DNA of 64,000 nt, taken from assembly GCA_903904685.1 (NCBI GenBank), contig CAIVDS010000058.1, positions 62,001 through 126,000 on the forward strand, given 5' to 3'. Below, one piece after another: positions 18,373-22,116 of the stretch; position 1 is the stretch's first letter, and each line of letters opens with the position of its first letter. A program made the position numbers and the translations under genes. The DNA comes from an uncultured Verrucomicrobiota bacterium (GTDB lineage: Bacteria > Verrucomicrobiota > Verrucomicrobiia > Opitutales > Opitutaceae). Under the pieces are notes generated by a model. The model was not told the origin of the DNA and did not search any database. It was given only the letters and a program-made list of their open reading frames with translations.

Positions 18373-18449
18373 CGGGCTGTAGCGTAGCCTGGTAGCGCGC
18401 TTGCATGGGGTGCAAGAGGTCGTGAGTTCGAATCTCACCAGCCCGACCA
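18373..18449 (+). tRNA. tRNA-Pro (anticodon GGG), CCA encoded
   Basis: The 7-bp acceptor stem CGGGCTG/CAGCCCG, a D-arm with GCG/CGC, the anticodon stem CTTGC/GCAAG around loop ATGGGGT (anticodon GGG), and the T-arm GTGAG-TTCGAAT-CTCAC all fold cleanly. C1-G72 is the bacterial tRNA-Pro identity pair. The 3' ACCA is genome-encoded. Its 3' half served as the integration site of the element to the right and was restored on integration, so the gene should remain functional. Confidence 0.96.
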
Positions 18450-18456
18450 TTTTCCC
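18424..18456 (+). repeat. attL: left copy of the 33-bp att core
   Basis: Covers the T-loop and acceptor 3' strand of tRNA-Pro, the CCA, and seven further bases (TTTTCCC). It is identical over 33 bp to 22084-22116; identity stops sharply on both sides (T versus A to the left, C versus A to the right). Confidence 0.9.
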
Positions 18457-18605
18457 CGACCGCACATTGGCGACGCCATGCGGTTAATTGCTAGTAGTGA
18501 CGACGTATCAGAGGATTTGCAAGATTTTGCGATTCCGACTCGGCACGACTCTAAAAGACATAGAACGACCGATTATGACCCCAGTTTGTGTGCGATCTGT
18601 GTGCT

Positions 18606-19226
18606 TCATTTCCGGTTACGGACCGATTCTGCGATTGAGGCACTCACGGCATCAGCGATTGAGCGTTCGTTCTTGGTGGAGGTGACAGGTGCCTGCACTG
18701 CCTTTCCGGCGTCGTTCCCGTTCCTCATGGCAGCTTCAATAAGTCGGTTGATCTCATTTCTATCATATGCCTGTTTTGCTGGGATATGGATAATCGGTAA
18801 GCCACCGGATGCGAATACATTATCAACAAATGAGTCGCGTGAAATTCTTTTTTCTTCTTCGTGCGAACTATCGTCCAACTCAATGCCAAGAAGCGGCTTC
18901 CCATCACTTTTTTGGATAAATAAGAAATCCACATGCTTTGCGGCGATGCGATTCAATGCACGCTGACGGTCGCCTCTTTCCAGTCCCTTTTTTATCCCGA
19001 AAATATCGGCCAATCTAACTTTGGATGTGATGCCGATTCCGTCATAATTTAAAGTCTCAAGAACACCGAAAAAGGAACGCTCTGCCGGTGTGAATAGTGA
19101 CTTTTGGAGGAAGTAAACATCAGGCTTCGCGCTGGGCTCTGAGGCTCCGGCTTTTGCTTTTAGTGCGGCGAGCGCAATTGCGATGACGACAAACAGAACG
19201 ACGACGATGATTAGAATTGTAGGCAT
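18606..19226 (-). CDS. DUF2726 domain protein with N-terminal membrane anchor
   Basis: A 206-residue protein. A hydrophobic helix at ~3-24 is followed by a DUF2726 domain (~45-150) with LTPAERSFFGVLE, RALNRIAAKHVDFLF and LLGIELDDSSHE. DUF2726 is related to the PD-(D/E)XK nuclease fold; the acidic pair in GIELDDSSH and a preceding KHVDFL fit such a site, but activity is unproven. It is the last gene of the element, next to the tRNA, a common cargo position. A role in defence or DNA processing at the membrane is conceivable and untested. It starts 50 bp after the int stop. Confidence 0.8.
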   Translation of the reverse strand: MPTILIIVVVLFVVIAIALAALKAKAGASEPSAKPDVYFLQKSLFTPAERSFFGVLETLNYDGIGITSKVRLADIFGIKKGLERGDRQRALNRIAAKHVDFLFIQKSDGKPLLGIELDDSSHEEEKRISRDSFVDNVFASGGLPIIHIPAKQAYDRNEINRLIEAAMRNGNDAGKAVQAPVTSTKNERSIADAVSASIAESVRNRK

Positions 19227-19276
19227 TTTTTTTGGAGAGGGGGTAAGGTTGATAATGCAACAGCGAGTGCCGATGG

Positions 19277-20383: not shown

Positions 20384-20600
20384 GTGAGTGAGGGGCTGGC
20401 AGGCGTGCCCTTGAGGGTTGCGATGTAGGCCCGCACGTCCGCATCTGAAAAGCGGAGCGAGCGACCAATTCTCAACGGTTGAGGGAAATGCTTTTTGCGA
20501 TTTCCCGTTCGATGGTGCGAGGGCAGACGCGAAGAATCGCGGCAACTTCTTTGAGCGTCAGGAAATTTTCTTCCGACGCCAAAACACTGAATGCGGACAT
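20380..20600 (-). CDS. xis: Excisionase-type HTH protein, reading frame broken by a -1 shift
   Basis: The N-terminal half reads MSAFSVLASEENFLTLKEVA... with the excisionase HTH (AILRVCPRTIEREIAK), then hits a stop at 20472 after six unrelated codons. In the -1 frame the expected C-terminus follows at once: KHFPQPLRIGRSLRFSDADV and on to ATLKGTPASPSLT, stopping at 20380-20382 inside the int ATG. The junction is a run of five A (minus strand, 20492-20496), where reading AAA again gives the canonical KKHFPQ. This could be programmed frameshifting, transcript slippage, mutation or an assembly error. An upstream ATG at 20831 overlapping the rep stop gives a longer alternative N-terminus. Confidence 0.75.
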
Positions 20601-20827
20601 GGTAGGTTCATGATTAAGGGAGAGTGCCCCGCGATCCGTTGCGTTTGTGCAGCGTGCCGCCTTGAGCTCATTCCCGCCTACTGGCGTCCGGGTCAGTGTA
20701 TGTAGTTGCGAGGGTTCACGCACGTAGCCGGACATTCTGTGCGATACTACCCCGCTTAATTTATTCTTCGGCGAGCACCCCAAAAACACGCTTTCTCGTC
20801 CGAAAGTCAATATAGGTCGAGTCGGTT

Positions 20828-21772
20828 TCATATGACTTGAAGCGACTCTGGATGACTTCCGACGACAGGCAGGAGGGGAATCACGACTCCGGTGAGATAC
20901 TGCACCCCGTTATGCATCCTGATCGACGACAGGCGCGCTTTCACCATTGCTCCGACTTCCGCAGGCAGCACCACAGCTTTTACGTCCGCGCCACGAGGAA
21001 GCCACTCCCTCACATGTTGGGTGTTCCCGCCGCACTCGACCACATGCTCGATGTAGGCCGATTCAATTCTCGTTCCCGTTGTGTCGTCCTTCTGAATTTT
21101 TTGCGTGACGGTCAATCCACGGTATTCGCCCACGACGACGAACTCACCGGTTTCGATCATGCTTTTAAGCAGTCCATCCCACTGAACGGCGGAAATGAAA
21201 AGCCGCTGGATTTCCTCCTGCGCTGGAGTTTCCGCCACGCGGATACGGGTCCGGACCGGTTCCACGCCTTCGACGGTCAACTCGACAATGGTGAACGCTC
21301 GGCCTTCCCACATTTTCGGGAGATACCGCGTTTTCGATGAGGCTTTGACGCGGTTGACCGGCACGCCATCGAAGCCCACGCACGCCCACCGGCGCAGTCC
21401 TTTGGTCAAGATGCCGCGTGAATCCTTATTAAGATACTTGGCCACATACCCCGCACTTGAAGCCCGAATTTCTTTCACGTTGATGCGTCCGAATCCGTAA
21501 CGCTCAACCGTCTTGCGGATTTCGTTAACATCCCAGCGGTCAGGAGTGACGCAGTGATAGTGCCACCGGCCATTTTTTCCGCCCGATTCAAGGACGCGCA
21601 CGCACACGCGGTCCGAATCGACGAGCCAGCGGACAAACAGCCGCCAACGACGCGCGGCCTCATCTGGGGAAACATCATCGGCAAAAGTGAACGTCCACAG
21701 GTAGCAATTCGCAGCCTCACGGAAGAGGAACTGGATGGAAAGAGAGCACGCCGCTTTGGAAAGGTTAGACAT
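20828..21772 (-). CDS. rep: HUH-type rolling-circle replication initiator (Rep)
   Basis: A 314-residue protein with the three Rep motifs: motif 1 YLWTFTFADD (~24-33), motif 2 RWHYHCV with the metal-binding HxH (His 71, His 73), and motif 3 AGYVAKYLNK with two candidate nicking tyrosines (109 and 113). This layout matches rolling-circle initiators of plasmids, inoviruses and microvirus VP4-like proteins. It would nick the double-strand origin, here probably in the hairpin-rich segment just upstream. A clear GGAGG lies 5 bases before its ATG, unlike most genes in this window, which hints at a different origin. The stop overlaps an ATG at 20831 as ATGA. Confidence 0.85.
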   Translation of the reverse strand: MSNLSKAACSLSIQFLFREAANCYLWTFTFADDVSPDEAARRWRLFVRWLVDSDRVCVRVLESGGKNGRWHYHCVTPDRWDVNEIRKTVERYGFGRINVKEIRASSAGYVAKYLNKDSRGILTKGLRRWACVGFDGVPVNRVKASSKTRYLPKMWEGRAFTIVELTVEGVEPVRTRIRVAETPAQEEIQRLFISAVQWDGLLKSMIETGEFVVVGEYRGLTVTQKIQKDDTTGTRIESAYIEHVVECGGNTQHVREWLPRGADVKAVVLPAEVGAMVKARLSSIRMHNGVQYLTGVVIPLLPVVGSHPESLQVI

Positions 21773-22083
21773 GGTAACCTCCGTTACGTTGTTCCCTCAT
21801 ATACAAGGTTAGGAGGGCAACGGCGGGGCGGCCTTCGGCCGCCTCCGCTCGTGCCCTCCGAATGCCTTGGGTTAAACGCGGGCTACCGCGACCGGCTTCG
21901 CCTTCACACCGCCATCCCTTGGGGATGGGTGGTCGGTGTGATCGCTGTCTGCCAGACTGTCCGTCTGCCGTGCGTGTTCGTGCGGCACCGGATACCGGTG
22001 CGGCGTGTGTGTTTCCTGTGTGCATCCTGTGCGACTCCTTTGGCTTTCCATTGGTTTATCGCCAGTTGCGGGGTGGGCTGGTA
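21773..22083. other. Non-coding hairpin-rich segment, candidate rolling-circle origin
   Basis: Three hairpins lie in 310 bp between rep and attR. One: GGAGGGCA (21812-21819) pairs with TGCCCTCC (21852-21859) and encloses a GC-rich stem (21825-21845, loop TTC). Two: CACACCG and CCATCCC (21905-21918) pair with GGGATGG (21922-21928) and CGGTGTG (21934-21940). Three: GCACCGG/CCGGTGC (21985-22001, loop ATA). Such structures next to a Rep gene are typical of double- or single-strand origins. No nick site was identified, and no gene is supported here. Confidence 0.55.
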
Positions 22084-22116
22084 GAGTTCGAATCTCACCA
22101 GCCCGACCATTTTCCC
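22084..22116 (+). repeat. attR: right copy of the 33-bp att core
   Basis: Identical to 18424-18456. Together with the eight bases GGGCTGGT at 22075-22082 it forms a hairpin (GGGCTGGT-A-GAG, loop TTCGAAT, CTC-ACCAGCCC), which mimics the tRNA acceptor/T-arm sequence on the element side. Confidence 0.9.

Follow-up and report, generated by a model that had tools for sequence, protein, structure and literature searches.

Several described mobile elements resemble in part the locus analysed here. The RS1 and TLC elements of Vibrio cholerae have filamentous-phage-type replication and an incomplete set of virion genes, depend on a helper, and integrate via the host XerCD, whereas the present element encodes its own integrase and no helper is known for it here. 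The pSAM2/AICE elements of actinomycetes carry a rep-xis-int module at a tRNA-Pro gene; the present element differs from them in lacking a TraB-type transfer protein and in having a Rep of the ORF2/G2P type. Integrated inoviruses with a tyrosine integrase have in common with it the type of Rep, the tRNA attachment repeats and the position of the integrase at the tRNA end, but they possess pI/Zot, coat and secretin genes, all three of which are missing here. The 2019 inovirus survey anchored its search on the pI gene, so that elements without pI would be missed (Roux et al. 2019, PMC6813254). Filamentous-phage satellites, including a plasmid reported as an inovirus satellite (Schmid et al. 2024, cited in PMC11389934), resemble the element in combining filamentous-phage-type replication with the lack of a full virion gene set. 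The Pseudomonas islands I23, I44 and I55 are bounded by direct repeats and carry a tyrosine integrase, an AlpA-type gene, a Gp2-like inovirus protein and cargo for defence; I55 is a jumbo-phage satellite that is carried by the jumbo phage (PMC12595487). These islands are inserted at tmRNA and their common region alone, with YqaJ and RadC, spans about 18 kb (PMC12595487), as against 2.9–8.8 kb for the elements reported here. A literature search, with bioRxiv preprints and most subscription journals outside its scope, found no description of an element class of this kind.

Architecture of the tRNA-Pro insert

In the window (the whole 64-kb stretch of DNA that was analysed, from a Verrucomicrobiota bacterium), a 3,660-bp insert is bounded by a perfect 33-bp copy of the 3' end of a tRNA-Pro(GGG) gene. 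The features of the locus are as follows.

18373–18449, plus strand: tRNA-Pro(ggg), the integration target, still complete (ARAGORN)
18424–18456, plus strand: attL core, the 33-bp tRNA 3' end (exact direct repeat)
18606–19226, minus strand: DUF2726 cargo gene, 206 aa, a hydrophobic N-terminus followed by a REase-fold domain (PF10881, 3.9e-31)
19277–20383 (start approximate), minus strand: tyrosine integrase, 368 aa, with the catalytic residues R...HALR...H...Y present (PF00589, 1.5e-18)
20384–20600, minus strand: excisionase-like gene (HTH_17/AlpA type), split by a frameshift (one Xis profile matched in two frames at consecutive model positions)
20828–21772, minus strand: HUH replication initiator (Rep), 314 aa (PF23343, 1.7e-9, and alignment)
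21773–22083: non-coding region of 311 nt with strong hairpins, candidate replication origin or phage-like intergenic region (DNA folding)
22084–22116, plus strand: attR core, the second 33-bp copy (exact direct repeat)
22287–23213, plus strand: right-flank host gene outside the element, directly 3' of tRNA-Pro in uninserted relatives (tblastn, 62–70% identity in L023, L024 and L026)

The two 33-bp copies of the tRNA-Pro 3' end reported in the first-pass annotation are thus exact, and the repeat is far beyond chance: once the second copy is masked, matches to the tRNA 3' region elsewhere in the 64 kb reach 12 bp at most. The GC content of the element is 54.7%, versus 59–63% in its flanks. The tRNA-Pro gene was located in congeners by a genus-level search with the left flank as query, and in three genomes of the same genus (G011, G009 and G010) it is followed by the right-flank orthologue (62–70% protein identity) with no insert, indicating a clean insertion of 3,660 bp. 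These empty sites also rule out an assembly duplication of the 33-bp repeat, which the same annotation had named as a possible refutation. With a tyrosine integrase, attachment repeats that leave the tRNA restored and an empty site in relatives, the locus is a site-specific integrative tRNA element, and integration by the encoded integrase is well supported. A separate observation concerns the five nucleotides that follow each repeat (18457–18461 and 22117–22121). In ten congeners the tRNA-Pro gene is followed by ATTTTCCCCG; in the window ATTTTCCCCG is found at attL, on the element side, and ATTTTCCCAT at attR, on the host side, the reverse of what is expected for simple insertion into a congener-like site.

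All four genes between the repeats lie on the minus strand, and Pfam bears out their earlier assignment as DUF2726, phage integrase, HTH_17 (below the cut-off) and REP_ORF2-G2P. The element likewise has no matches to capsid, packaging or relaxase genes, as annotated, nor to coat protein, secretin, TraB or coupling protein genes, its space being filled by the four genes and the 311-nt gap. Zot, the pI morphogenesis ATPase, is absent from the element, the 64-kb window and the whole genome. The 11 congeners sampled likewise gave no Zot inovirus, so that any helper of this kind would need an outside source.

The two nearest relatives of the integrase (46% and 48% identical) likewise stand next to a tRNA-Pro(ggg) gene, and the choice of target therefore looks like a property of the integrase lineage. 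Two further loci carry related integrases. At a tRNA-Pro gene in G035 (L109:5908–8834), one is enclosed by the tRNA and a 13-bp partial repeat, without a Rep match, and may be a derivative reduced to the integrase. At L110:4150–10281 a tandem pair at tRNA-Met neighbours a TraG/TraD-like ATPase (PF12696, 3.1e-6).

The excisionase gene, counted in the first-pass annotation among the four genes, is broken as assembled. The Xis profile is matched at model positions 6–33 in one frame and 37–60 in another, and the shift, at about 20490–20498 within the HTH domain, falls in a short A run. The C-terminal frame runs to an ATGA that it shares with the start of the integrase gene, so the original xis presumably extended to that point. 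The shift may be a mutation, slippage or an assembly error. To judge from the broken frame, excision may be impaired and the copy as assembled may be stuck in the chromosome.

DUF2726 is a REase-fold DNase domain that occurs with Abi domains (PMC3710099). The DUF2726 protein of the window has no PADLOC match. At L107:12507–13007 a DUF2726 gene (PF10881, 8.2e-25) is flanked by two inovirus prophages that carry Zot and lie on opposite strands, and DUF2726 is thus found near inoviruses elsewhere too.

The replication initiator and the intergenic region

Residues 1–165 of the Rep form the HUH domain (H71-Y-H73, with Y109 and Y113), and the H71-x-H73 motif and both tyrosines are invariant across eight aligned Reps. 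The protein thus has the HUH motif and catalytic tyrosine of a rolling-circle replicon and, being of the filamentous-phage type (Pfam REP_ORF2-G2P), is an inovirus-type replication initiator. The predicted order of strands and helices over residues 20–119 is that of the HUH domain, and matches to HUH proteins in the PDB are weak (2x3g, 4er8, 9pqf and 6wdz, none below E = 0.001). The strong GGAGG that had been noted on the Rep gene is present, as AACGGAGGTTACC-ATG.

Residues from about 190 to 314 form a second domain, which is a separate gene in related inoviruses, matching genes of ~105 aa in the Zot-bearing loci L005, L006 and L014 (3e-5, 3e-5 and 2e-3, respectively). Because this part stands as a small gene of its own in Zot-bearing prophages, the Rep looks like a fusion of two inovirus genes, which would be the simplest reading of the alignments. 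Both of two structure predictions have low confidence in this C-terminal part. A single-stranded-DNA-binding (gV-like) role is plausible for it, as a guess from position and size; a profile comparison with the gV-like genes of other elements described below was unconvincing, as was the comparison with the PDB.

Upstream of the Rep gene, the 311-nt region is strongly structured as DNA (z = -7.2 and -6.8 on the two strands), with 0 of 100 shuffles as stable. Together, the HUH Rep and this region point to rolling-circle replication of the element.

Zot-bearing and Zot-less relatives

Relatives of the Rep were searched for among related genomes, the phylum and the order, and fell into two groups, a close one with Zot-bearing prophages and one of more distant, tRNA-bounded elements. 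The nearest Reps include those of the Zot-bearing inovirus prophages L005, L006, L014 and L015. L005, from the same bacterial family, is an 8.9-kb prophage bounded by 28-bp tRNA-Tyr repeats with a related integrase at the tRNA end. The first-pass annotation had set the element apart from integrated inoviruses and did not mention this kinship of its Rep. The Rep was absent from all 12 sampled congeners. Viral contigs gave no close relative by Rep or Int, and nothing when searched with a Rep and a conserved accessory protein from the related elements, while a scan of genome contigs returned a single relative, L066, identical to L013 and already known from the phylum search. Phage and plasmid collections held no DNA match to the element, and the weak protein matches in phages and plasmids were to a Blackfly microvirus (1e-4) and a 2.1-kb E. 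coli plasmid (1e-3).

The Rep profile identified 13 further elements in 10 genomes (L105, L106 with two in tandem, L118, L119, L120, L128, L129, L130, L131, L139, L141 and L143), a count that leaves out a Rep profile match in L007 (G021). At least these 13 carry tRNA 3'-end repeats, a Rep and an integrase. They measure 2.9–8.8 kb, with repeats of 17 to 38 bp, and are found at eight types of tRNA gene (Tyr, Asn, Leu, Met, Pro, Glu, Ser and Val); the Rep gene adjoins the repeat distal to the tRNA, and the tRNA itself is overlapped by the integrase gene in most of them. A Zot profile search of the 13 gave no match, and no capsid or relaxase was detected in them. Among 78 of their proteins, Pfam assigns 13 to integrase and 13 to REP_ORF2-G2P; the other families, among the best 25 of 28, include HTH, restriction-modification, SIR2, TIR, patatin, AbiEii, RloB, DndB and the like. 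TraB/FtsK, relaxase and coupling protein are not among the 25 commonest of these 28 families, and no structural family is among the best 25 of 43 in PHROGs. Many of the elements carry defence genes (restriction-modification, SIR2/Dsr1, TIR, AbiE and AbiL/RloB). Strong PADLOC matches were obtained for type IIG and II restriction-modification, Dsr1, AbiL, PDC-S66 (TIR), PDC-S19 and AbiEii, in cargo proteins selected for their defence-like look, so that these matches are not a measure of the share of defence genes.

The element had been described as smaller than the known kinds, and is not uniquely minimal, as L129 is a Rep and Int element of 2.9 kb at tRNA-Ser. In L143 the integrase is split, and this element may have decayed. 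A single tRNA-Asn at L106:3569–16077 holds a tandem pair of different Zot-less elements, with att present in three copies. Six Zot-less elements encode a conserved protein of 165–209 aa (L130:5543–6040, L131:6696–7193, L118:11262–11771, L141:6492–7100, L106:5065–5694 and L120:13480–14028), the tested copy of which, from L130, has no Pfam match. The window's own genome (G000) has a second REP_ORF2-G2P gene at the end of contig C40, beside tRNA-Glu (L112:1–1670); its Rep groups with Zot-less elements on the tree, and it is probably a second, cut-off element.

In the Rep tree (39 rows, 24 of them labelled), Zot-bearing and Zot-less forms are mixed, with at least four changes between them, a pattern consistent with repeated loss as well as with repeated gain of virion genes. 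Several branches are long, including that of the window Rep, whose placement among inoviruses is moderately supported (91/83). The window element and the 13 others have a common architecture, which need not imply one origin.

Nature and spread of the element

We consider the element to be a small integrative rolling-circle replicon that has a filamentous-phage-type replication module and no virion genes, with a probability of roughly 0.7. The best reading is that it is related to inoviruses, that its virion genes were lost or never present, and that it would need a helper to spread. The core of the first-pass proposal, a plasmid- or satellite-like element with a tyrosine recombinase at tRNA-Pro and an HUH Rep, is well supported by the empty sites, the tRNA-Pro kin of the integrase and the related Rep and Int elements. 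Excision to a circle, replication, packaging and transfer are predicted steps. The integrase would recombine attP with the tRNA gene, restoring the tRNA; after excision, the Rep would nick an origin in the 311-bp intergenic region to yield single-stranded circles, and these would spread only with outside help. Packaging into the virions of related inoviruses, as a satellite, is the most plausible route, held at somewhat less than even odds, and another phage, transformation or conjugation might also serve. The DUF2726 nuclease would be cargo that either benefits the host or shields the element from rival phages, as suggested by the defence genes of the sister elements. The frameshift in xis suggests that the element may be decaying. 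The missing Zot helper in the genome and the sampled congeners, the long branch of the Rep and the lack of close relatives in the phage, plasmid and viral-contig collections also weigh against this reading.

It is unlikely that the locus is a decaying inovirus prophage, in which a full filamentous prophage at tRNA-Pro was stripped in situ of the genes for coat, secretin and Zot and kept only Rep, Int and cargo. The kinship of its Rep with Zot-bearing prophages, the broken xis and the lack of a helper in the genome are consistent with such a history, but neither Rep nor Int is disrupted, the Rep, xis and int genes form a tight array with ATGA overlaps, the strong structure of the intergenic region is kept, and many virion-less sister elements exist, most with intact genes. 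A static genomic cassette, in which integrase-bounded cargo no longer replicates or moves and the Rep is a passenger, is improbable to a similar degree: the intact Rep and Int argue against it, as do the perfect 33-bp repeats, which suggest a recent insertion, and the absence of the Rep from 12 of 12 sampled congeners, three of them with a clean empty site, although xis is frameshifted and the element is known as one copy in one genome with no close relatives. Least likely is a plasmid-like element akin to pSAM2 and the AICEs that has integrated and depends for its mobility on conjugation instead of a phage helper. Its Rep-Xis-Int order at tRNA-Pro resembles that of pSAM2 and three sister Reps match Pfam RepSA weakly (best 3.6e-6), but the Reps score best as ORF2/G2P, and TraB/FtsK, relaxase and coupling protein are missing both from the element and from the 25 Pfam families most frequent in its sisters.

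Taken as a compact integrative replicon, the window element and the 13 Zot-less elements may, with a chance that we place only just under one half, represent an undescribed class with inovirus Reps that has repeatedly become separated from virion genes and ferries small anti-phage defence modules among Verrucomicrobiota, possibly in the virions of related inoviruses. Surveys of filamentous phages anchored on Zot/pI overlook such elements. Because Zot-bearing and Zot-less forms are interspersed on one Rep tree, the way in which satellites arise from viruses can be studied by direct comparison. If these elements are satellites, inoviruses would be accompanied by an entire layer of small parasites equipped with defence genes, and defence modules would have a simple, testable route between bacteria.
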